Shown here one piece after another: positions 505 to 12,562 of a stretch of 12,904 nt of DNA (position 1 is the stretch's first letter; the number at the start of each line of letters is the position of its first letter). Source of the DNA: Dehalococcoidia bacterium (GTDB lineage Bacteria > Chloroflexota > Dehalococcoidia > GIF9 > UBA5629); NCBI GenBank assembly GCA_012961565.1, contig DTZC01000023.1, forward strand, positions 1-12,904, in the 5' to 3' direction. Both the position numbers and the translations under genes were made by a program. A model generated the notes under the pieces. That model was not told the DNA's origin, made no database searches, and saw only the letters and a program-made list of their open reading frames with translations.

Positions 505-515
505 ATGAGGATATT
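486..515 (+). promoter_or_regulatory. Possible otsA promoter overlapping its start
   Basis: A perfect -35 hexamer TTGACA (486-491) is followed after 18 bp by GATATT (510-515), a 4/6 match to the -10 consensus. Transcription would then begin near 522, downstream of the ATG at 505 and just before the in-frame ATG at 529. This would make a nearly leaderless mRNA starting at residue 9 of the annotated protein. The -10 is weak, so this is tentative. Confidence 0.25.
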
Positions 516-2019
516 CAATACAGACACCATGAGCACAGCTGGTGAAGCAAACTGGACCAGGGAAGGTTTGCAGCACTTGGTCACAACCAAGTTAGCCGGG
601 CGCTTGTTCATAGTGGTATCTAATAGGGAGCCTTATATACACACTTCGGCTGGTGGTGAAATTCAGTGTCTGGTTCCAGCGAGCGGGCTTACGGTAGCTC
701 TGGACCCGGTGATGCGTTCTTGTGGCGGCGTCTGGATTGCTCACGGTAGCGGTAATGCTGATAGAGATGTGGTTGATGAAAAGGGTCATGTATCGGTCCC
801 TCCTGATGAGCCTTCCTACACCTTAAGACGAGTGTGGTTGACCAAAGAAGAGGAGGAGGGTTATTATTTAGGTTTTTCCAACCAGGCACTATGGCCGTTA
901 TGTCATATCGCCTATACACCTCCGAACTTTGATGAGAGTCACTGGAATACATACCGGAGAGTAAATCAGCTCTTTGCTGGTGCTGTCCTGGATGAGGTTG
1001 GTGACAAACAGGCGATTGTGTTTATTCAAGACTACCACCTGGCTCTCTTGTCTCGCTTGATTAAAGCTAAGAATGCCCGGGTGATAACCGCACAGTTCTG
1101 GCACATCCCCTGGCCTAATCCTGAAGCCTTTCGAATTTGTCCTTGGGGGGAAGAGATTCTGGACGGGCTGCTAGGAAACAATATTCTAGGCTTTCACATA
1201 GGTTATCACTGTGAGAACTTCTTGGAGACGGTAAGACGAATGCTCGAAGTAAAGATTGACTATGAAAGGTCAGCGGTCAGTCGCGGTGGTGAGACCACGC
1301 TGGTGCGGTCTTTTCCCATAAGCGTTGACTTCGACCGTATAGCGATTGATGCGCGTAGGCAAGAGGTAGTTAAAGAAATAGAGCAGATTCGACGCAGATG
1401 GAGACTGAGTGATGAAATTATCGGTATCGGTATTGACAGGATAGATTACACCAAGGGTATCCCCCACAGGTTTAGAGCCCTAGATAAGCTCTTCACCAAG
1501 TATCCTGAGTATCAAAAGCGGCTGGTCTTCTTTCAGTTAGGCGAGCCAAGTCGGGTGCATATTAAGAAGTACAAGGAATTGAATGCTGAAATTGATGACC
1601 TGGTTGAAGAGATAAATTGGAAGTACGAGTCCGATAATTGGCGACCGATAATATATGTCAGGGAGCATTTACCCCCGACAGCTTTATTAGGTTTTCAGCG
1701 ACTGGCGGATTTTTGCATTGTCAGTTCTCTGCATGATGGGATGAACCTAGTAGCCAAGGAGTTTGTTTCTTCTAGGGTGGACAACGACGGCGTACTCATA
1801 CTCAGCCGGTTTACCGGCGCCGCCAGAGAATTGACCGAGGCTCTTCTGGTTAATCCTTACGCCATAGACGACTTTGCCGAGACGATTAAGCGAGCTATTG
1901 AGATGCCACGAGGGGAGAGGCAAGAGAGGATGAGGAAGCTACGCCAGATAGTGAGGCAAAACAACATTTACCGCTGGGCGGGGGGTATCCTCTCCGAATT
2001 AGCCGACTTAAAGCTTTAG
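505..2019 (+). CDS. otsA: Trehalose-6-phosphate synthase (GT20)
   Basis: Transfers glucose from an NDP-glucose to glucose-6-phosphate to give trehalose-6-phosphate in the cytoplasm. The 504-residue protein has the GT20 landmarks in order: SNRE (39-42) in the N-terminal loop, [10 protein letters not shown] (74-83), HIPWP (200-204), [11 protein letters not shown] (229-239), [10 protein letters not shown] (311-320) with the Arg/Lys that hold the donor phosphates, and [12 protein letters not shown] (409-420) with the donor-binding Asp and Glu. Length fits single-domain OtsA; the phosphatase is a separate gene directly downstream. About 30 residues precede the conserved core, so the start is open: ATG at 505 has only a weak GGGG (496-499), and ATG at 529 is an alternative. 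The nearest alternative activity is glucosylglycerol-phosphate synthase, a GT20 relative, but the otsB and TreT-like neighbours favour trehalose. The donor nucleotide (UDP, ADP or GDP) cannot be read from sequence by eye. Confidence 0.92.
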
Positions 2020-2034
2020 GTGTATTCATACCAT

Positions 2035-2823
2035 ATGCAGTATCTTTTCGATAGTTGGGGTGGAGTTGCTCGACGTCTCAAGTCAGCCGACCACATTTTG
2101 CTTCTCACTGACTATGACGGCACCCTGACTCCTATCGTAGGTAGACCGGAATTAGCCACTCTGCCACAGGAAACACAGAAGCTGCTGCGGAGGCTGGCCA
2201 GGGACCACCGCCATACGGTTGGAGTTATCAGCGGTCGGGCTTTAGCTGACCTCAAGGATAAGGTAAACGTTGAGGGCATTATTTATGCTGGAAATCATGG
2301 ACTAGAGATAGAGGGCTTCGGTTCAAGTTTTCTCGAGCCTATCGCGGAAGAGATGAGACCTTTTCTTCAGATGCTCAAGCTGGCATTATCGGCTGCATTG
2401 AGAGGCATTAAAGGGGTATTTGTTGAGGACAAAGGTCTAACGTTGAGTGTCCACTACCGTGCAGCTGAACAAGCGGAGGAGAAGAAAATAAGAGATACCC
2501 TCAGCCGTATCGCCGACCCGCTCCACGTTACCGGTCAGATACGAGTTACCCGAGGCAAGAAGGTGTACGAAATAAGACCACCTGTGGACTGGGATAAAGG
2601 CAAGGCGATAGCCTGGCTTATAGCCAAATTTAGAGAGACAAGGGGCAAAGGTAATGTGCTGCCCATATATCTAGGGGATGACCTGACCGATGAGGATGGC
2701 TTCAAGGCAATTGAGAAAAACAAGGGTATTTCAATTTTTGTCGGTGAAGGAAACTCTAGGTCAAGCGCCCGCTACTTTTTGAAATCACCTGAAGAAGTAG
2801 TAGTATTTTTGAAGATGCTATGA
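2035..2823 (+). CDS. otsB: Trehalose-6-phosphate phosphatase (HAD family)
   Basis: Removes phosphate from trehalose-6-phosphate to give free trehalose, the second step after OtsA. Numbered from an in-frame GTG at 2020, the HAD motifs are DYDGT (31-35, nucleophile Asp31 and general acid Asp33), SGR (71-73), GNHG (91-94), DWDKGKA (190-196) and GDDLTDEDGF (219-228, Mg-binding acids). Length is typical for OtsB. I chose ATG 2035 because the AGGTG at 2018-2022 that overlaps the GTG can serve as its ribosome binding site (12 nt spacing), whereas the GTG, which directly abuts the otsA stop, has no such site. This removes five residues and touches no motif. The stop TGA overlaps the next start as ATGA (2820-2823), which implies translational coupling with the MscS gene. 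Confidence 0.92.
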   Translation: MQYLFDSWGGVARRLKSADHILLLTDYDGTLTPIVGRPELATLPQETQKLLRRLARDHRHTVGVISGRALADLKDKVNVEGIIYAGNHGLEIEGFGSSFLEPIAEEMRPFLQMLKLALSAALRGIKGVFVEDKGLTLSVHYRAAEQAEEKKIRDTLSRIADPLHVTGQIRVTRGKKVYEIRPPVDWDKGKAIAWLIAKFRETRGKGNVLPIYLGDDLTDEDGFKAIEKNKGISIFVGEGNSRSSARYFLKSPEEVVVFLKML

Positions 2824-4232
2824 CGTCTGAAAACGTTCTGGTTGAGTGGCTAACCCAGTGCTGGCTCTGGCTGACACAAAACTGGCTGCATATTGTTATT
2901 CCCCTGCTAGTCTTTCTGGCTGCCTATGTGGTAGGCTTGTGGGTCAGGAGGGCTGCTTATAGAGCCTTTAATCGCTGGGCAGCAAGGGGGAGATGGGAGG
3001 GCAGCAAGCTGGTTATCGAAACCACAAGGGGGGCGTTCCTTCACTGGTTCCTGATACTGGGAGCCTTTTTGGCTATTCATGCTTCCGGGCTGAGCGCTCC
3101 GACCAAGGTTTTAGCTGACAAAATACTGGCAACTCTGTTTGTAGTGTCTCTGACCTGGGTTGTTGCCAGCCTCAGTGAAAAGGTGCTGCGGTTGTATATA
3201 GCGCAGGTGGAGCCTCTGCAGCCATTGGAAAGACTGCTGGTGAACATAGCCAGAGCTGCCATTGCCGTGGTTGGTGCTCTAATGCTGCTTGATATCTGGG
3301 GAGCACCGACGACACCTGTTATTCTAGTTCTAGCTGCTGGAGTTCTGGTGGCAGCTTTAGCTTTCAGAGACCTGCTAGCGAACCTGTTGTCTGGCTTCCA
3401 GCTTGTTCAAGGGGAACAGCTCAAGGTCGGTGACTTTATAAAATTGGGGTCAGGGGAAAGCGGTTATGTCGCCGAGGTGACTTGGAGGAACACCAAAATT
3501 CGAGGGCTGGATGGTAATCTTATCTTAGTACCTAATAACAGGCTGGTTCAGAGCACCATTATTAACTATGGTCGTCCCCTAAAGAAAGCTTCCAAACCCT
3601 TTCGTTTTTACACCCGCTTGTGTTTAAAGGAGCTGACAGGTCTTAAAGCCCGGAATTTGAAGGAGCTACTTGCTCTGCTGAGAGAAGTCCCCGAATCGGT
3701 GATTTATTTCCACACCCATCATTTTCTGGAGCAACACCACTATCTAATTCCCGAGCCAGCTAATGACTTTGCCCTATGGGTTAGTGATGAGCTGGGTGAG
3801 GAGACATTAGGTGAGAAGTTAGCCAGTATCGATACCTTTGAGTTCCCCACCATTGATGCCCTGCGAGCGAGAATCGAAGGGGTTATCAGTGACTATTTGG
3901 CACAGAATCCAGATGGGCGAGCTGTGAGCGAGGGGCGAGAGTTTCATTTCATCAAGTCGATAAGCTTCGTGCTGCCCACTCCTTATGTGGCTCATGACCT
4001 CAGAGAGTTTGTCGAAGTGCTGAGGCAGATTAGCCTTAATTCCCTTAATTACCATGTTTTTGAGGCGAGGTTGAGATTGAGGAAAGGTGTTAATGACTTT
4101 TCAGCCTGGATCGAGGATTGCCTGGGGGACAGAGATCTGGCAGAAAAGCTAGCCTATCTTGACCCCTACAATTATACACTGGAGGGTTTGAGGTCAGCGA
4201 TAATCCAGTTGATTGAGAAACGCATAAAGTGA
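2820..4232 (+). CDS. MscS-type mechanosensitive channel with duplicated C-terminal domain
   Basis: A likely small-conductance channel that opens under membrane tension and releases solutes on hypo-osmotic shock. Of 470 residues, the first half shows about five hydrophobic segments (near 22-42, 72-90, 102-121, 139-160, 165-190). The last, Ala/Gly/Leu-rich and ending RDLLANLLSGFQLV, matches the MscS pore helix and is followed by the beta domain: QLKVGDFIKLG (200-210), then NTKIRGLDGNLILVPNN (224-240). The usual MscS C-terminal alpha/beta domain is not evident. Instead there are two related copies of about 95 residues (261-360 and 375-470), sharing NDFxxWxxDxLG (315-326; 425-436), EKLAxxD and a closing LRxxI helix. 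From memory these resemble Pfam DUF5752; I cannot check. The gene overlaps otsB by 4 nt and the TreT-like ORF lies immediately downstream, so it belongs to the trehalose cassette. Confidence 0.85.
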   Translation: MTSENVLVEWLTQCWLWLTQNWLHIVIPLLVFLAAYVVGLWVRRAAYRAFNRWAARGRWEGSKLVIETTRGAFLHWFLILGAFLAIHASGLSAPTKVLADKILATLFVVSLTWVVASLSEKVLRLYIAQVEPLQPLERLLVNIARAAIAVVGALMLLDIWGAPTTPVILVLAAGVLVAALAFRDLLANLLSGFQLVQGEQLKVGDFIKLGSGESGYVAEVTWRNTKIRGLDGNLILVPNNRLVQSTIINYGRPLKKASKPFRFYTRLCLKELTGLKARNLKELLALLREVPESVIYFHTHHFLEQHHYLIPEPANDFALWVSDELGEETLGEKLASIDTFEFPTIDALRARIEGVISDYLAQNPDGRAVSEGREFHFIKSISFVLPTPYVAHDLREFVEVLRQISLNSLNYHVFEARLRLRKGVNDFSAWIEDCLGDRDLAEKLAYLDPYNYTLEGLRSAIIQLIEKRIK

Positions 4233-4238
4233 CACGGA

Positions 4239-4246
4239 GAGGTGAT
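4239..4246 (+). promoter_or_regulatory. Strong ribosome binding site deciding the treT start
   Basis: GAGGTGAT is fully complementary to the 3' end of bacterial 16S rRNA (anti-SD core). It sits 6 nt before an in-frame TTG at 4253. A GTG at 4229 that overlaps the upstream stop has no comparable site. This favours TTG 4253 as the real start. Confidence 0.6.
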
Positions 4247-4252
4247 AGTCAG

Positions 4253-5509
4253 TTGCAGAGTGAAATTCGCCTTAAGTCAAAGCCCCGACTGGAGGACTAC
4301 GAGCCGATAGTGAGTAAAAGCTGCATCGAAGAGTTGCGAGCCCTGGCTCGGAAACTATCAGGGAAGGTCGTCCAGATTATCAATTCTACATTCATCGGAG
4401 GTGGGGTGTCGGAGATTCTGGGGCATATGGTGCCTTTGTTCAATCAACTGGGTGTTGACGCGAGGTGGGACGTAATCCGTGGCGATGAGACATTCTTCGA
4501 AGTAACCAAGAAGTTCCACAATGCTCTCCATGGCGAAAAGGAGAAGATTTCGCCACAGGACTTTGCCTTGTTCCGTGAAGTAACCAAACAGCACCTGGAG
4601 GAATTAAGCTTCTACGGGGACATTTTCTTTATCCAGGACCCGCAGCCGGTGGGTCTGGTGGCTAAGAAAAAAGAGGTGGGCAGGAACTGGGTCTGGAGGT
4701 GCCACATCGATATTTCCAAGCCAGACAAACGGGTGTGGAATTTCATTCGGCAGTTCGTTCTCGATTATGATGCGGCGGTCTTCTCGGCACCAAACTTTGC
4801 CCAGCGGCTGCCGGTTCGTCAATTTATGATTACACCATCAATAGACCCGCTGAGCGACAAGAACAGAGAGATAGACCAGAACACGGTTGATTCCGTGTTG
4901 ACCAAGTACGGTCTGACGTCAAACAAACCTATGGTGGTGCAGATTTCCCGGTTCGACCGCCTCAAGGACCCGCTGGGTGTGCTAGAAGCCTTTGAGATTG
5001 TGAAGAAGGCAGTAGACTGTCAACTGGTTCTGGCTGGGGGGACAGCAGCAGATGACCCGGAGTCTGAAGAGGTGCTCGAGGAGGTTAGAAGGCGTGCTAA
5101 TGGAAACCGGGATATTCATGTGCTGCTGGTTCCACCTGAGAGTGACCTGGAGATTAATGCGTTGCAGAGGGCAGCCACAGTTATCATCCAGAAGTCGTTG
5201 AAGGAGGGATTCGGGCTCACCATAAGTGAGGCCTTGTGGAAGGGAAAACCGGTGGTGGCTTCAGCAGTTGGCGGCATACCACTGCAGGTCAAGAATGCGT
5301 TAACTGGACTTTTATGCTACAGCGTGGAGGGAGCTGCCTACCATCTCAAGCGGTTGCTGACCAATCCAGAATATGCTAGCTGGCTGGGGCAGAATGGGAA
5401 GGAACATGTGCGGCAGAATTTCTTGGTAACCAATCAGATTAAGGACCTGCTGCTGATGTTTCTGGCTATAGGACTGCCGGGCAAATCCTCCGATGTGGTC
5501 CATCTATAG
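4253..5509 (+). CDS. treT: TreT-like trehalose synthase / GT4 glycosyltransferase
   Basis: TreT enzymes make trehalose in one step from NDP-glucose and glucose (often reversible), bypassing trehalose-6-phosphate. Numbering from the longer ORF start at 4229 (426 residues), visible features are GGGVSE (57-62) in the N-terminal Rossmann half, WRCHIDIS (156-163), SRFDRLKDP (240-248) with the donor-binding Arg/Lys, and KEGFGLTISEALWKGKP (325-341) carrying the GT4 E-x7-E pair (Glu326, Glu334). I place the start at TTG 4253 because of the ribosome binding site before it; this gives 418 residues and leaves a short N-terminus before the RLEDY element, as I recall for archaeal TreT. A caution on function: in Thermoproteus tenax a glycosyltransferase in the same kind of operon was reported to activate the trehalose-phosphate synthase by complex formation, so this protein may act as enzyme, regulator or both. 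Confidence 0.8.
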   Translation: MQSEIRLKSKPRLEDYEPIVSKSCIEELRALARKLSGKVVQIINSTFIGGGVSEILGHMVPLFNQLGVDARWDVIRGDETFFEVTKKFHNALHGEKEKISPQDFALFREVTKQHLEELSFYGDIFFIQDPQPVGLVAKKKEVGRNWVWRCHIDISKPDKRVWNFIRQFVLDYDAAVFSAPNFAQRLPVRQFMITPSIDPLSDKNREIDQNTVDSVLTKYGLTSNKPMVVQISRFDRLKDPLGVLEAFEIVKKAVDCQLVLAGGTAADDPESEEVLEEVRRRANGNRDIHVLLVPPESDLEINALQRAATVIIQKSLKEGFGLTISEALWKGKPVVASAVGGIPLQVKNALTGLLCYSVEGAAYHLKRLLTNPEYASWLGQNGKEHVRQNFLVTNQIKDLLLMFLAIGLPGKSSDVVHL

Positions 5510-6078: not shown

Positions 6079-7083
6079 TTACTGTGCTTCAGACACTGGT
6101 TTGCGTAATGGCTTGAAAATGCCCTGAGCACCTATGCGAGAGGCTACCTCTTCAGCCTCCTTCATTATCCTGTCTATCAGCTCCTTGACACCGGGTATAT
6201 CATGGACGAGCCCCACCACTTGACCCGCGCTAAGTAGTCCATTCTCTACGTCCCCGCCCTCAAGAAGCTTCAGCCCTGCTCTCCCACTTATGAGCGACTC
6301 CAGCTGGTGTATATCTGCTCCTTGCTTCTCCATCTCCAAGACTTTCTCAGAGGTGGGATTTCTCAGAGCCCTCATCGTGTTGCGGAATGAGCGCAACAGC
6401 AGCATGGTATCGCGCTCCGAAGCTTGAATCAGCCACTCTTTCACTTTGGGATGCCCCGGCGCTTCTTTAGTTGCCATGAATCTGGTGCCCATATTAACTG
6501 CTTCTGCTCCCAGTGCCAGTGCAGCAACAAGCCCACGTCCATCACCAAAGCCTCCGGAGGCAATAACAGGTATTTTCACAGCATCTGCGGTGAGGGGAAC
6601 CAACACCAGCGAGGTGACATCTTCCTCACCGGGATGTCCGGCGCACTCGAAGCCATCAATACTTATAGCATCGCAACCTATTCGCTCGGCGGTGCGGGCA
6701 AAGCGGACGGCAGTGCATTTGTGTATTACCTTTACTCCTGCTGACTTGAGTCGCCCCATATACTGCTCTGGATTTCTGCCGGCGGTCTCCACAATCTTAA
6801 CGCCAGCATTTATCACCGTGTCCAAGTAGCCATCAATGTCTATGGGACGGAGTGTTGGCAAAAGCGTGATATTGACTCCAAAAGGCTTATCAGTGAGTTC
6901 CTTGGTTCTTTTTATCTCGGCAGCTAATTCTTCGGGTGTTGGATGGGTGAATGCTGTCAAAATGCCGAGACCTCCAGCATTGGATACGGCAGAGACTAGC
7001 TCAGCCCGTGAAATCCACATCATGCCACCTTGAATGATAGGGTACTTGATACCAAAAAGTTCGGTGATACGCGTTTCAAACAT
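6079..7083 (-). CDS. Nitronate monooxygenase family FMN enzyme
   Basis: This TIM-barrel flavoenzyme family (2-nitropropane dioxygenase) oxidises alkyl nitronates such as propionate-3-nitronate; relatives include the FabK enoyl-ACP reductase. The 334-residue protein has the N-terminal YPIIQGGM element (14-21), FECAGHPGEED (145-155) with His150 at the catalytic-base position, ASGGFGDGRG (175-184) and MGTRFMAT (198-205), the FMN-phosphate-binding glycine loops. Length is normal and nothing looks broken. The start ATG (7081-7083) is preceded by GGAGGAG with 5 nt spacing, an excellent site. It is transcribed divergently from the antiporter gene and converges on the trehalose cassette, so it appears monocistronic here. 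The AGHPGE form favours nitronate monooxygenase over FabK, but the natural substrate is unknown. Confidence 0.88.
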   Translation of the reverse strand: MFETRITELFGIKYPIIQGGMMWISRAELVSAVSNAGGLGILTAFTHPTPEELAAEIKRTKELTDKPFGVNITLLPTLRPIDIDGYLDTVINAGVKIVETAGRNPEQYMGRLKSAGVKVIHKCTAVRFARTAERIGCDAISIDGFECAGHPGEEDVTSLVLVPLTADAVKIPVIASGGFGDGRGLVAALALGAEAVNMGTRFMATKEAPGHPKVKEWLIQASERDTMLLLRSFRNTMRALRNPTSEKVLEMEKQGADIHQLESLISGRAGLKLLEGGDVENGLLSAGQVVGLVHDIPGVKELIDRIMKEAEEVASRIGAQGIFKPLRKPVSEAQ

Positions 7084-7153
7084 TGTCTCTCCTCCATACG
7101 TTACAAATTCTGCTGCGTTTTGACATCTTCACCTGTTAGCCATTCCTTCTTAT

Positions 7154-7184
7154 TTGGTTCGGTTATCGGGTGATATGCTAGAAT
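7154..7184 (+). promoter_or_regulatory. Extended -10 promoter for the antiporter gene
   Basis: TAGAAT (7179-7184) is preceded by TG at 7176-7177, making an extended -10 element (TGnTAGAAT). A -35-like TTGGTT (7154-7159) lies 19 bp upstream, wider than ideal, which an extended -10 tolerates. Predicted start near 7191 gives a leader of about 20 nt. Confidence 0.45.
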
Positions 7185-7211
7185 GAGGTTGATTCGGGAC
7201 TGGAAGGGATT

Positions 7212-8936
7212 ATGGCAGGATTTGACCCCATTGTCAATATCGTCATCGTGCTGGCAGCAGCCCTAGTTGGGGGTATGGTGGCACACCGGTTAAGACAGCC
7301 AGTGATTTTAGGCTATCTGCTGGTAGGTGTTGCCCTGGGACCTCACGGTTTTGGCATAGTGAGCGACCTGGAACTAATTGAGACACTAGCCACTATAGGC
7401 GTCGCTCTGCTGATGTTTACCGTGGGGCTGGAGATATCTTACAGCCAGCTCTGGGAGGTAGGCAGGGTCGGCATCTGGGGTGGTATAGCCCAGATTTCGG
7501 CAACTTTTGCTCTAGGTATGGCGGCAGGGTGGCTGATATTTGACTGGACTCTATCGGATGCTACCTTCTTTGGGCTTATTATCTCGTTGAGCAGCACCAT
7601 GGTTGGTCTCAAGCTCCTTATGGAGCGGGGTGAGCTTGATTCGGTGCACGGGCGTATCATGGTGGCTATTCTCATTGTCCAGGACTTGAGTGTGGTGCTG
7701 ATGATGGTGGTGGTGCCTGTATTTGGTGCCACACCACAGGTACTGCTGACGAGTCTTGCAGTCAGTCTTGGCAAAGCAGTTCTTTTCCTAGGAGTGGCGA
7801 TAATCCTGGGAATTTGGGTGTTACCCTGGTTGCTAGGCACAGTGGCTGGAGTAAGGTCGCGTGAGCTTTTTCTGCTAACGATTCTCATTTTGTGTTTTGG
7901 AGCTGCCATTGCCACCTATATCTTTGGCTTGTCTATAGTCTTTGGGGCTTTCGTAGTCGGATTGCTGCTTAGAGAGTCAAGATTTGCTCATCAGGCTCTA
8001 GCTGAGGTAACTCCACTGCGGGACGTCTTCGCCACCCTCTTCTTTGTGTCACTGGGTATGCTCTTAAGTCTACAGTTTGTGGTGGAGCACCGGACTGCGG
8101 TGCTTTTGCTTGTTGGAGTTGTCTTAGGTCTCAAGTTCCTGATTTGCTTCGGTATCACCAGATTTTTTGGCTATGGTGGGCGCGTGGCTGTGTTTGTAGG
8201 TGCTGGGCTTGTTCAAATGGGAGAGTTTGGCTTTATCCTGGCCCAGGCAGGAATGAATGCTGGAATAATAACAGAACATATTTATTCGCTGGTCATAAGC
8301 AGCACGGTTATCACCATGCTGCTTACCCCGGTATTGATGGGGCTGGTCTCGGTGCTGTATCCCAGGTCACTTGGCATTCCTCCCGTCAGGGAGCTCCTAA
8401 CAGGCGATTCTATTGTTTCTGAAGGATTGAAGTCGTCACAGCCTGAAAATCTGGTAGTGCTCTGCGGCTATGGCAGAGTGGGGCGAAATGTTGCTCGCAG
8501 CCTGCGCAACCTTGCGATACCGTATCTCATTATTGAGATGGACCCTGAACGTATTTCGGAGCTGCACCGTGAAGGTGAGCCCTGCATATATGGGGACGCC
8601 AGCAATGTCCACGTACTTTCTCTAGCCGGGCTGGACAAAGCCAGCGTGCTGGTCATTACCTTTCCCGACCCTTTAGCTACTGTGACGACCGCCAAGACTG
8701 CCCTGAAGATGAATCCAAAGCTTCAAATCATCGCCCGGGTTCATCGAAGACGTGAGATTGAACTCCTTGACAGCCTGGGGGTTTCAGGATTAGTCAGTCC
8801 GGAATATGAGGCGAGTTTTGAGTTTGTCCGCCATACCCTGGCTGGCATCGGATGGAATAAAGCCAAGATCCAACAGGCAATAAACAGATTGAAGCATCAC
8901 AAAGAGGAGGGCGAGCTTAACCCCAGCGAAGAGTAA
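7212..8936 (+). CDS. CPA2 cation:proton antiporter with TrkA-N (RCK) domain
   Basis: An inner-membrane monovalent cation/proton antiporter of the KefB/KefC/Ybal type, likely moving K+ or Na+ against H+. Of 574 residues, about 1-385 are highly hydrophobic with roughly 12-13 helices (PF00999-like). They include GYLLVGVALGPHGFG (34-48) and IVQDLSVV (155-162), where Asp158 fits the conserved ion-binding acid. Residues 413-530 form a cytoplasmic nucleotide-binding domain with the Rossmann loop GYGRVG (419-424) and the strand-end acid in IIEMD (440-444), typical of NAD(H)-sensing TrkA-N domains. The TrkA-C domain seen in some relatives is absent; only a charged tail of about 40 residues follows. 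Start ATG has GGAAGGG close upstream. Beside a trehalose/MscS cassette, a role in osmotic or pH homeostasis is a reasonable inference. Which cation it moves is not evident. Confidence 0.87.
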   Translation: MAGFDPIVNIVIVLAAALVGGMVAHRLRQPVILGYLLVGVALGPHGFGIVSDLELIETLATIGVALLMFTVGLEISYSQLWEVGRVGIWGGIAQISATFALGMAAGWLIFDWTLSDATFFGLIISLSSTMVGLKLLMERGELDSVHGRIMVAILIVQDLSVVLMMVVVPVFGATPQVLLTSLAVSLGKAVLFLGVAIILGIWVLPWLLGTVAGVRSRELFLLTILILCFGAAIATYIFGLSIVFGAFVVGLLLRESRFAHQALAEVTPLRDVFATLFFVSLGMLLSLQFVVEHRTAVLLLVGVVLGLKFLICFGITRFFGYGGRVAVFVGAGLVQMGEFGFILAQAGMNAGIITEHIYSLVISSTVITMLLTPVLMGLVSVLYPRSLGIPPVRELLTGDSIVSEGLKSSQPENLVVLCGYGRVGRNVARSLRNLAIPYLIIEMDPERISELHREGEPCIYGDASNVHVLSLAGLDKASVLVITFPDPLATVTTAKTALKMNPKLQIIARVHRRREIELLDSLGVSGLVSPEYEASFEFVRHTLAGIGWNKAKIQQAINRLKHHKEEGELNPSEE

Positions 8937-9200: not shown

Positions 9201-10148
9201 TTATGGTAAAGATTCGAGCATATTCTCTATCTCCTCAGGGCTCTGGAAGGCATCGTCCTTGATGGCTCTGATGATGCCGTTTTCGTCTATGAGAAAGGTC
9301 GTGGGACAACCCCGTCTGTATGTGGTGCAGACATCACCGTCAGGATCGAGCAGTACCGGCAAGGTCAGTCCCAGGCTGTCGGTAACAGAGAGCACGGTCA
9401 GTGCTTCCTCTCCCACGTTGACGGCAAGTACTACCAGTTCCTCGTCTGACCACCTATCAGCAACTGTCTGAAAATATACCAGTTCATCTATGCAGGCGGG
9501 ACAGGTACTCACCCAGAAGTTCAGTAATACAGTTCTGCCCCGGAAATTGCTCAGAGTGTAGATTTGACCGTAGATGGTGCGTAAGGTGAAGTCGGGGGCG
9601 GTATTGCCTATTTCAGGAGCGGCTTTAGGTTGAGGGATGAGTGTCAGAGCTGGGAATACCTCTGTCACCACGTCTTCTATCTGCTGCCGGCTCTGGAATG
9701 AGCCAACCTTGTATGCTTGAATAATACCCTCGGCATCGATGAAGAATGTCACTGGCACACCGGGGATGCCATAAAGGCGAGAGGTGCTCTTGTCCAGGTC
9801 AAGCAGCACAGGGAAATTCAAGCCGCTACTGGCGATAAAGGCGCTTACTGCTGCGGCACTATCTCCAGCGTTTACGGTCAGTAGAACCACCTTCTCATTT
9901 GACCACCGGTTATAGAAGTTCTGAAGATAGGGCATTTGAACCTGGCAGGCGGGGCAATATATGCTCCAGAAAGTGAGCACCACCGGCTTACCATTGAAGT
10001 CACTCAACGTAACTGTGCTGCCATCAAGGGAGGGCAGCGTGAAATCGGGAGCATGGGCAACGTTCCCTTTGCTGCAGCCGCTCAGCACGCTGCTGAGCAT
10101 TAGGGCTATTCCTAAGATAATTACTAGGTACCATTTACTTCTGTTCAC
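9201..10148 (-). CDS. Lipoprotein with two TlpA/ResA-like redoxin domains
   Basis: A predicted extracytoplasmic thiol-disulfide protein. The N-terminus (1-24) is a lipoprotein signal ending LSGC, with Cys25 as lipidation site. Domain 1 (about 33-167) has APDFTLPSLDG and active site WSIYCPAC (Cys65, Cys68). Domain 2 (about 180-315) has APDFTLRTIYG and WVSTCPAC (Cys216, Cys219). Domain 1 carries the usual cis-proline loop as GVPVT. Domain 2 reads RGCPTT, with an extra Cys281 before the proline and another Cys274 seven residues earlier, so it may form a second disulfide or bind a ligand. Start is GTG 10148 with AGGAG 11 nt upstream. It lies 45 nt after the zinc-ribbon/FN3 gene on the same strand, so the two are probably cotranscribed. 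Electrons likely come from the CcdA encoded nearby. Targets could be cytochrome c maturation factors or other exported thiol proteins; this cannot be decided here. Confidence 0.82.
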   Translation of the reverse strand: MNRSKWYLVIILGIALMLSSVLSGCSKGNVAHAPDFTLPSLDGSTVTLSDFNGKPVVLTFWSIYCPACQVQMPYLQNFYNRWSNEKVVLLTVNAGDSAAAVSAFIASSGLNFPVLLDLDKSTSRLYGIPGVPVTFFIDAEGIIQAYKVGSFQSRQQIEDVVTEVFPALTLIPQPKAAPEIGNTAPDFTLRTIYGQIYTLSNFRGRTVLLNFWVSTCPACIDELVYFQTVADRWSDEELVVLAVNVGEEALTVLSVTDSLGLTLPVLLDPDGDVCTTYRRGCPTTFLIDENGIIRAIKDDAFQSPEEIENMLESLP

Positions 10149-10193
10149 GGTCAGCCTGGCTCCTACTTTGATTTAAGATGGAATAGTGGTGAG

Positions 10194-11819
10194 CTACAGG
10201 GATTTGACTATTTCTTCTATCTGGGTGTATGTTTTGAAGCTTGTGTCTTGCCTTTTGCGCACAACGCCCCACTCATCAATGAACAGAGTGGTGGGATTAG
10301 AGCTCGGATTTGCCCTGTATTTGTCAGCTACCTCTCCCTGTTGGTCAAGCAAGATAGGAAAGGTGAGCCCTTTGTCTTTAGCGAACGTCTCCGCTTGCTC
10401 CTTGCTCTGTTGCCAGTTAATAGCGAGTATTTCCAATTCCTCACCTGACCATTTCTCATAGAACGTCTGGACAGCAGGCATATGAGTTATGGCGTATCTG
10501 ACATCTACCCAAAAGGTGACCATGACGAGTTTGCCACGGAAGTCGCTTAAACTGACCTCGTTGCCATTGAGGTCTGGGAGTGTAAAATCTGGAGCCCGCT
10601 TACCTACTTCCGGAGCCACCTCGGCGGTAACCGACACGGTGCTACCGGTTGTGAAGGTGCGATCTTCAGATACCACCTCATTGCCAGCGGCGTCTTTAGA
10701 TATCACTCTGAAGTGGTAGGTCATATCGGGCTGGAGTCCTGTTAGGGTGACGCTGTGCTCTGTAGTCAGGCTTTCAACGTATGGCGTGGTATCCCCATAA
10801 GTTTCACTGATGCCATATTCCACCTGGCTTGAAGCTGGGCTGTTGGTTTTCCAGCTTATGGTGATGCTTGCGTCGGTAAGGTTTGACGTGGTAATTTCTG
10901 AAATCAGCAGTGCCACTGCAGTAGTTTCAGGTAGTGTGGTAAATTCTCCTTCATAAATAGCTTGGTTTTTGCCAGCATCTGTGGAGGTTGCGGTGAATTT
11001 ATAGGAAGTATCTGGCTTGAGGTCACTCAAGCTGACTGAATGAGTGGTGGTTAGGGTCTCATCTAGTTCTGTCCAAGTACACCCTCCTTCGGGCTCACAT
11101 AGCATCACCTGGCTGGTAGCTGGCTCGCTGGTTTCCCATGTAACCACAGCACTGCTCTGGGTTATGTCGGAAACAGAAACATTTTGAATCACAGGTGGAG
11201 TGGTATCAGCAGGACCGAATGGCAACCATCCCGGCCACTCGATTCCCTCGATCCACTGCTGGGTAGCGGTGATGGGGGCTGTCAGCCAGCCCTGACTCCA
11301 GATGGCAAAACCAAGGAGGCTGACACCGAAAAGAACCATAACGGTCACTATTGCCAGGGGGAATCTGCGCGCTGGTATCGGTCCGCTAGGCATCCTAGGA
11401 CCAACGCTGGGTGGTGGTTGTATCCCACTGTAGGGTGTTGGGACTGGCATGGCCGGGGGACCATATTGTGATGGCGTTGCTGAGACGGACGGTACGGGTG
11501 TAGGCTGTGGGGATGGCACTTCCTGACGACCGGTGATGTAACCACCGGGTGTTTGCCATCCTGTGGGGCGTTCTCCACTGCCTGGTATTGGAGTCGGGCT
11601 CAGCGTGGTGGATGGTGGAGTAGAGGGAGGAGGTGCTGCCTGTTCTGCCTCGCCGGTGATAGCAGGACCGACAGCAAAGCCACAGTGGGGGCAGAATTTT
11701 ACCCCTGGGGGAATAACTCCATGGCAGCCAGGACATATTCTAGTAGCACAGCGGGGGCAAAAGCGACTGTTGGAATCGATTTCTTGACCGCAGTTAGGAC
11801 ACCTGATTATTCCTGTCAC
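10194..11819 (-). CDS. Membrane protein: double zinc ribbon, Pro-rich linker, TM helix, two FN3, cysteine-less redoxin
   Basis: A 541-residue multidomain protein with no family name I can assign as a whole. Residues 7-24 and 29-46 are two zinc ribbons (C7/C10/C21/C24 and C29/C32/C43/C46). Residues 56-150 are a Pro/Ser/Thr-rich linker, and 153-174 form one transmembrane helix. Two fibronectin type III domains follow (about 205-296 and 302-392), each closing with a TxHSVxLxxLxPDxxYxF strand pair; the first has an extra Cys241/Cys247 pair. The C-terminal domain (about 404-541) is TlpA/AhpC-like (APDFTLPDLNG, NPTTLFID), but the active-site stretch reads FWVDVRYAITHMP, one residue shorter and with no cysteine. 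The predicted topology is ribbons inside, FN3 and redoxin outside. A role in binding or sensing rather than catalysis is inferred. Start is GTG 11819 behind AAAGGTG (11824-11830) and a strong promoter. The double-redoxin gene follows 45 nt downstream. Confidence 0.82.
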   Translation of the reverse strand: MTGIIRCPNCGQEIDSNSRFCPRCATRICPGCHGVIPPGVKFCPHCGFAVGPAITGEAEQAAPPPSTPPSTTLSPTPIPGSGERPTGWQTPGGYITGRQEVPSPQPTPVPSVSATPSQYGPPAMPVPTPYSGIQPPPSVGPRMPSGPIPARRFPLAIVTVMVLFGVSLLGFAIWSQGWLTAPITATQQWIEGIEWPGWLPFGPADTTPPVIQNVSVSDITQSSAVVTWETSEPATSQVMLCEPEGGCTWTELDETLTTTHSVSLSDLKPDTSYKFTATSTDAGKNQAIYEGEFTTLPETTAVALLISEITTSNLTDASITISWKTNSPASSQVEYGISETYGDTTPYVESLTTEHSVTLTGLQPDMTYHFRVISKDAAGNEVVSEDRTFTTGSTVSVTAEVAPEVGKRAPDFTLPDLNGNEVSLSDFRGKLVMVTFWVDVRYAITHMPAVQTFYEKWSGEELEILAINWQQSKEQAETFAKDKGLTFPILLDQQGEVADKYRANPSSNPTTLFIDEWGVVRKRQDTSFKTYTQIEEIVKSL

Positions 11820-11852
11820 TATGCACCTTTTTGCTATGAAAAACTATCCATT

Positions 11853-11880
11853 ATTATACATCTTGAGACAAGCGAAACAA
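11853..11880 (-). promoter_or_regulatory. sigma70 promoter for the zinc-ribbon/FN3 gene
   Basis: On the minus strand, TTGTTT (11880-11875) and a perfect TATAAT (11858-11853) are 16 bp apart. Predicted transcription start is near 11846, giving a leader of about 27 nt to the GTG start. This makes the two downstream genes a transcription unit of their own, apart from ccdA and the single-domain redoxin. Confidence 0.6.
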
Positions 11881-11926
11881 ACTACCGCGACTTTTATGAA
11901 GATTGGTAACGTGGCTTCTCTCTGGG

Positions 11927-11939
11927 TAGCATGATGCTA
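11927..11939. repeat. Palindrome TAGCATGATGCTA
   Basis: A perfect 6-bp inverted repeat around one central base, about 47 bp upstream of the -35 element of the zinc-ribbon gene promoter. It could be a binding site for a dimeric regulator. There is no second copy I noticed in the window, so function is speculative. Confidence 0.25.
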
Positions 11940-11998
11940 TAGCGCCTGTAGGTTGTGCGTCGAATGGTTAGTCACCGTTTAAGGTTGCTTTTCTTAGG

Positions 11999-12054
11999 AA
12001 AAAAATATTACTACACACCTGAGTCATGTTCTGAAGCAATATCTAGGCTCAGAA
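11999..12054 (-). terminator. Possible terminator after the single-domain redoxin gene
   Basis: Just past the stop codon, on the minus strand, TTCTGA (12054-12049) and TCAGAA (12034-12029) form a 6-bp inverted repeat with a 14-nt loop; a competing CTGAG/CTCAG pairing (12052-12048 with 12023-12019) also exists. A run of seven T (12005-11999) follows further on. The T-run is separated from the stem by over ten bases, so this is not a textbook terminator. Confidence 0.3.
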
Positions 12055-12055
12055 G

Positions 12056-12562
12056 TTACAGGGACTGAAGTATGTCTTCTATCTCCTGGCTACTCTGGAA
12101 AGGCCCTACCTTCTTGTATCTGACAAACCCTTCGGTATCAATGATGAAATTTGTCGGAGGGAAGCGTGTAACACCATAGGCAGTTGCAGTTTTGTTCTCA
12201 GGGTCGGGTAGAACAGGGAAAGTCGTTAATTGCTTCTCAGTCACGTAATCCTTGATTATCCTGGCGTCATAGATTATGTGATAGATGTTCAATACTACTA
12301 GCTCTCCCTGTGCCCGCTGATAGACTTCGAGGAGGTATGGCATCTGGTCCTCGCATTCTTTACAGTTGACACTGGTAAACACGAGCAGCACAATTTTGCC
12401 TCTAAAGTCGCTCAAACGCAAGGTGTCGCCATTGATAGTTGTCAGCGTGAAGCCAGGAGCCTTGTCTCCTACCTCTGGGATGGTGGCAGAACCTCCACAG
12501 GCTGGCGCCGTAAGGGCTATAGCGATGACGACTGCGATTGTTACCAGTGCTTTAGCTTTCAT
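12056..12562 (-). CDS. TlpA/ResA-like thiol-disulfide lipoprotein
   Basis: A single-domain extracytoplasmic thioredoxin-fold protein of 168 residues, normal for TlpA/ResA. Residues 1-21 are a hydrophobic signal ending APAC, with Cys22 the likely lipidation site although Ala rather than Leu occupies position -3. The redoxin core shows GDKAPGFTLTTINGD (32-46), active site NCKEC (66-70; Cys67 and Cys70), and RFPPTNFIID (133-142) with the cis-proline. CKEC is unlike the CPAC of the neighbouring double-redoxin protein and suggests a different redox potential or partner. Start ATG (12560-12562) is preceded by an AGGAG about 10 nt upstream. It follows ccdA by 52 nt on the same strand. The usual logic of such a pair is that CcdA keeps this protein reduced so that it can reduce cytochrome c apoproteins or other exported substrates. 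Confidence 0.85.
   Translation of the reverse strand: MKAKALVTIAVVIAIALTAPACGGSATIPEVGDKAPGFTLTTINGDTLRLSDFRGKIVLLVFTSVNCKECEDQMPYLLEVYQRAQGELVVLNIYHIIYDARIIKDYVTEKQLTTFPVLPDPENKTATAYGVTRFPPTNFIIDTEGFVRYKKVGPFQSSQEIEDILQSL

Follow-up and report, generated by a model that had tools for sequence, protein, structure and literature searches.

This locus raises the question of why an MscS-type channel gene, placed between genes of trehalose synthesis, ends in a domain that is foreign to MscS, and what this domain may do there. The window, i.e. the whole stretch of 12,904 nucleotides that was analysed, from a Dehalococcoidia bacterium, contained the following features.

505..2019, + strand: OtsA-like trehalose-6-phosphate synthase (GT20), opening the cluster (PF00982, 416.8 bits; TIGR02400, 433.9 bits, below the equivalog cut-off of 564.85)
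2020..2823, + strand: OtsB trehalose-6-phosphate phosphatase (PF02358, 165.1 bits; TIGR00685, 181.6 bits, cut-off 68.05)
2820..4232, + strand: MscS-DUF5752 fusion channel of 470 aa (open reading frame and Pfam)
3330..3407, + strand: pore-lining helix, residues 171-196 (alignment with MscS/YnaI)
3369..3572, + strand: MscS beta domain, residues 184-251 (PF00924, 62 bits, cut-off 20.2)
3594..4217, + strand: DUF5752 (OrfY-like) domain, residues 259-466, replacing the MscS C-terminal domain (PF19027)
3594..3890, + strand: first repeat, residues 259-357 (hhalign of the halves), one long strand and five helices
3936..4217, + strand: second repeat, residues 373-466 (hhalign of the halves), strand and helix order as in the first
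4229..5509, + strand: TreT, GT4 trehalose glycosyltransferring synthase (PF21269, 175.1 bits; PDB 6zj4, E of 2.1e-117; 2x6q, E of 4.4e-90)

The channel gene overlapped otsB by 4 bases and treT by another 4. OtsA and OtsB were encoded by two distinct open reading frames, and no fused TPS-TPP was found in the window. The gene at 4229-5509 carried the PF21269 N-terminal domain and a GT1 domain, and matched solved TreT over nearly the full length. Against NCBIfam TreT_Thcocales it scored 335.6 bits, below the equivalog cut-off of 775, which is consistent with a position outside the branch of the Pyrococcus horikoshii TreT. After the cluster, at 6079-8936, genes for a nitronate monooxygenase-like protein and for a cation antiporter of the KefB/YbaL type were observed; such genes also occurred near the cluster in loci L008, L009, L012, L014 and L040, with up to three of the nitronate monooxygenase-like kind. 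Three consecutive redoxin-type proteins were encoded at 9201-12562 on the - strand, with two AhpC/TSA domains in one, zinc ribbons, FN3 and a redoxin domain in another, and a single domain in the third.

The Pfam search of the 470-residue protein at E 0.1 gave PF00924 at residues 184-251 and PF19027 at 259-466, and no further family. The PF19027 match (223.2 bits) covered profile positions 2-208 of 208 and confirmed at full length the DUF5752 identity that the sequence-only reading had suggested. The internal duplication claimed there was also recovered: the two C-terminal halves aligned with each other by blastp (E of 9e-13, with a score far exceeding 2000 shuffles) and as profiles (E of 3.7e-23). 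Its third claim, that the ordinary vestibule domain was missing, held as well. PF21082, the MscS C-terminal cage domain, was not found in the window channel by Pfam at E 0.1, yet the ordinary MscS that this genome encodes on contig C151 showed it among the three usual MscS domains, so its absence from the window channel was not a failure of the search. The two-fold repeat belongs to the DUF5752 family generally, and the window domain has the OrfY fold with two repeats. The OrfY of Thermoproteus tenax (PDB 4CSO, DUF5752/PF19027; structure released in 2014) is a stand-alone chain of 216 residues, whereas the window domain forms the C-terminal end of a channel protein. The DUF5752 family and its solved fold are already known, as are MscS pores that end in foreign domains; no paper that demonstrates a role for DUF5752/OrfY was found. 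One DUF5752 protein (P0275) carried the source name MinE and is probably misnamed.

The window channel shares the pore helix and the beta domain of MscS and YnaI, with which its residues 99-252 aligned; the best E value (2.1e-12) was obtained with a YnaI-MscS chimera. L176 and L180 kept the positions of the two leucines that form the seal in E. coli MscS (L105/L109). R183-D184 stood where E. coli MscS has Q112-G113 at the pore-helix kink. Among 42 fused proteins, leucine was present at position 176 in 34 and at 180 in 37, R183 in 40 and D184 in 36. Besides the R-D in place of Q-G and the missing PF21082, the window channel differed from E. coli MscS by extra N-terminal membrane helices before the MscS-like core, as suggested by hydropathy and a structure model. 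The pTM of the full-length model was 0.47, and therefore the model gives no relative domain placement. The window protein is predicted to be an MscS-like pore and not a canonical MscS, and it is possible that it serves as a non-conducting membrane anchor instead of a conducting channel. Bacterial CNG channels are relatives of MscS that carry a cyclic-nucleotide-binding domain and are gated by cyclic nucleotides. They have in common with the window channel, going by titles cited in PMC4560390, that an MscS pore ends in a foreign module; unlike in CNG channels, a cNMP-binding domain was not found in the window channel (Pfam, E 0.1).

A search with the window channel gave 938 matches, and all of the best 120 of these had both PF00924 and PF19027; other MscS proteins with this domain, for which the sequence-only reading had proposed a search, were thus found. 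The tree of DUF5752 gathered all 27 fused domains in a single clade (100/100), and one database fragment fell there too. The fused proteins with titles were from Chloroflexota/Dehalococcoidia; P0108 and P0112 were named Nitrospirota, and P0108 lay inside the fused clade. A Chloroflexota genome of a different class (G019) had a stand-alone DUF5752 (L086). Among 20 stand-alone loci (L020-L039), four (L020, L024, L028 and L030) had in the cluster a separate MscS gene with PF21082, and L035 had an MscS-like gene farther off; in the sequence examined, the remaining 15 had no MscS-like gene, and an MscS_N-like gene was absent from 16 of the 20. An unfused channel beside DUF5752 and TreT thus exists but is not the rule, and the channel is not a fixed member of the DUF5752-TreT set.

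The neighbours of the domain were compared in 71 DUF5752 loci, i.e. the window, the paralogue on contig C11, a set of 33 loci, five of other Chloroflexota, two archaeal and 29 of Omnitrophota (58 of 145 Omnitrophota genomes matched, from which the 30 best-scoring loci were taken). The 71 loci held 67 distinct DUF5752 domains, four pairs being identical, and a few were cut by contig ends (L004, L017, L037 and L040). In 70 of the 71 loci, TreT came after DUF5752 in the same orientation, and in 68 it was directly adjacent. The sole locus without TreT stopped at a contig edge; a 27-residue DUF5752 end followed by TreT opens contig C228 of that genome, which was read as the continuation of the locus. 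The only gene that parted DUF5752 and treT was an AAA_14/DUF4143 ATPase gene, in L023 (8694-9875) and likewise in L137 (Pfam was run on one of them); with the same domain and the same inserted gene, these two loci look like one genome. Two further DUF5752-TreT loci from a Myxococcota survey (L154 and L155) agreed with the pairing. In L015, L026, L034, L038, L039 and L088, TreT was present and neither OtsA nor OtsB was found in the sequence examined. Because the pairing persists where OtsA/OtsB are missing from the locus sequence, TreT and not OtsA/OtsB is the constant neighbour. The supposed link of the channel domain with trehalose genes was upheld, and refined in this respect.

In the source genome, both the DUF5752 channel and TreT were encoded twice. 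One pair was in the otsA-otsB cluster, and the other was in a glycogen-type cluster (glgC-GH57-glgA-ROK-GH57) across a contig break, over contigs C151, C11 and C228; the same arrangement was observed on a single contig in genome G170 (L088). A 634-aa protein that ends the glycogen-type cluster in L085 (2617-4518) had no Pfam match at E 0.01. Of 400 Chloroflexota genomes, 15 matched PF19027, six with the whole domain and nine with half-length units in other proteins. PF21269 was found in 102 of the 400, including all six with full-length DUF5752; the chance of this co-occurrence was about 2.5e-4, calculated by hand from the counts with relatedness ignored. Whole DUF5752 therefore goes with TreT, while TreT can do without DUF5752. 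Two further phyla gave whole domains too: among 246 genomes from the phylum of the archaeon G400, 25 matched and three of these had the whole domain, and among 188 genomes of Myxococcota, the phylum of G403, nine matched, again three with the whole domain.

The TreT tree comprised 91 sequences, 68 of 69 linked to DUF5752 and 23 of 24 unlinked ones, one from each set being dropped as too short. A 100/100 branch placed the 68 linked TreTs on one side and the 23 unlinked on the other, a split limited by the unlinked set, which consisted of best-scoring loci from Chloroflexota only. No DUF5752 was found in the ~1.5 kb flanks of the 24 unlinked TreTs. A second tree was made with 25 of the 68 linked TreTs, the same 23 unlinked and two structures. 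In this tree a 100/99 branch placed 6zj4, which we take to be the T. uzoniensis TreT (Thermoproteus type), with the linked group, and 2x6q, the TreT of P. horikoshii, with the unlinked group. The identity of 6zj4 was taken in part from a passage of PMC11046441. The placement of 6zj4 is the expected outcome if the Thermoproteus TreT is of the OrfY-linked kind. The P. horikoshii enzyme shares the GT4 family and the predicted reaction with the gene at 4229, but unlike it belongs to the DUF5752-free branch. Passages of PMC3634074 and PMC7688234 term the T. tenax TreT pathway unidirectional. Two clades were common to the DUF5752 and TreT trees, namely the fused clade and an eight-row Omnitrophota clade (L025, L029, L126, L127, L134, L136, L140 and L153), while L143 and L152 shifted position.

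With moderate confidence, we propose that the window protein is a channel of the MscS superfamily whose cage domain was replaced by a two-repeat DUF5752/OrfY domain, that this domain arose in evolution as a partner dedicated to one TreT branch, and that it likely holds TreT at the inner channel mouth and ties its activity to turgor. The TreT held there by DUF5752 would be the product of the overlapping gene that follows. At low membrane tension the channel would be closed and the docked TreT would make trehalose; upon down-shock the channel would open and let solutes out, and the moving cytoplasmic module would slow or free TreT. The exchange of the domain, its repeat and fold, its constant pairing with treT in the loci examined, the matching TreT group and the single origin of the fused clade were observed, while physical binding, the effect on activity, conduction of solutes and the direction of regulation are inferred here. 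Partner docking is favoured by the genomic context, gene order being a sign of association and not of binding. It is supported by the pairing across loci, the presence of TreT in six of six genomes, the separate TreT branch, the two cluster types, the single fused clade, the MscS genes with PF21082 in four of 20 stand-alone clusters, and a precedent in T. tenax. Against it, TreT is common without DUF5752, so that TreT chemistry does not need the domain; single DUF5752 units on non-TreT enzymes imply that the unit may have a more general role; and the tree conflict of L143 and L152, the low pTM, the name given to OrfY in the PDB and the 16 of 20 loci with no MscS_N-like gene in the sequence examined also count against docking.

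The closest experimental precedent for the proposed docking of TreT at a channel tail is the msc-gt-tpsp operon of T. tenax. Passages of PMC3634074 describe msc, gt and tpsp as an operon, called unique to Thermoproteus and Pyrobaculum, in which GT binds and activates TPSP, and propose trehalose release through the channel. The MSC is given there as 197 aa and likened to the MscS transmembrane region, and the GT as PimA-like; its length and description suggest that this MSC has no DUF5752. Channel, GT4 and TPS/TPP genes stand together in both systems, and the arrangement proposed for the window would also share with T. tenax a trehalose enzyme complex and a model with a trehalose-releasing channel. 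The window differs in having DUF5752 on its channel, TreT as the GT, and separate otsA and otsB genes with no fused TPS-TPP.

A somewhat unlikely alternative is that DUF5752 is a ligand sensor, its repeats binding alpha-glucan, trehalose or NDP-glucose, and that the fused form is a metabolite-gated MscS comparable to the bacterial CNG channels. This reading was kept because single DUF5752 units also occurred on other carbohydrate enzymes. In the archaeal phylum, 27 half-match loci (L098-L124; four below the family cut-off, Pfam run on L098, L108 and L115) had a C-terminal unit on NDP-sugar pyrophosphorylase-like (17/27) and GH57 (8/27) proteins. L119 looks false as a DUF5752 locus. A 105-aa single-unit protein (L050, 1408-1725) adjoined GH57 and glucan phosphorylase-like genes, and a 109-aa protein of L053 resembled it. 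Units also ended proteins with HAD phosphatase and HerA-type ATPase parts (L046-L049, L052, L054 and L158; assigned by Pfam for L046 and by eye for the others) and large look-alike proteins (L051, L156, L157 and L159-L161), of which L051, the one run with Pfam, had response-regulator-like and PPDK_N matches. The half-repeat profiles matched 35 and 29 of 42 half-match proteins (E < 1e-3), which had been chosen beforehand by the DUF5752 search, and none of 840 shuffled decoys; the signature H...[DH]F[AS]xW was present in 36 of the 42. Single units on such varied enzymes favour a general accessory unit and keep ligand sensing alive. A glucan ligand nevertheless fits poorly with the PPDK, HAD and HerA partners, and ligand sensing alone explains neither why the double domain is paired with TreT nor the separate TreT branch.

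Less probable still, the domain could be a neutral structural substitute for the cage as filter or crowding sensor, with no contact to TreT, whose co-expression would merely reflect ancestral gene order. Since DUF5752 stands alone beside TreT in the other lineages examined, its fusion to an adjacent channel could have arisen without function, and the unfused channels of L020, L024, L028 and L030 kept PF21082. This is opposed by a pairing that spans several phyla and two cluster types and has its own TreT branch, and by the many DUF5752 positions that were invariant or almost so in the 42 fused proteins. That DUF5752/OrfY is a transcription factor, and the fusion a membrane-tethered osmotic regulator of trehalose genes, is highly improbable: PDB 4CSO bears the molecule name 'ORFY PROTEIN, TRANSCRIPTION FACTOR', but the domains were mostly acidic to neutral (median pI of 6.0, with 8 of 86 domains exceeding 8 and the window domain at 5.65, which argues only weakly), Pfam gave no DNA-binding family for the window protein (E 0.1), DUF5752 units are fused to metabolic enzymes, and a search of the open-licence literature found no paper on T. 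tenax OrfY.

A stronger form of the docking of TreT at the channel mouth, which we put forward tentatively, is a turgor-gated enzyme platform, in which a heptamer would sense tension and release compatible solute while its seven DUF5752 tails switch TreT, release and synthesis being opposed outputs of one switch. If this is true, DUF5752 repeats would serve generally in alpha-glucan and trehalose metabolism, as units of attachment or regulation. For the families concerned, TreT divides into DUF5752-linked and unlinked branches, and DUF5752/OrfY gains a concrete predicted partner in TreT. The locus suggests a coupling, at the membrane, between the synthesis of a protective sugar and its release. 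The matching of solute synthesis to solute release is usually viewed as the work of separate circuits; a fusion of a channel with the partner of a synthase would couple both directly.
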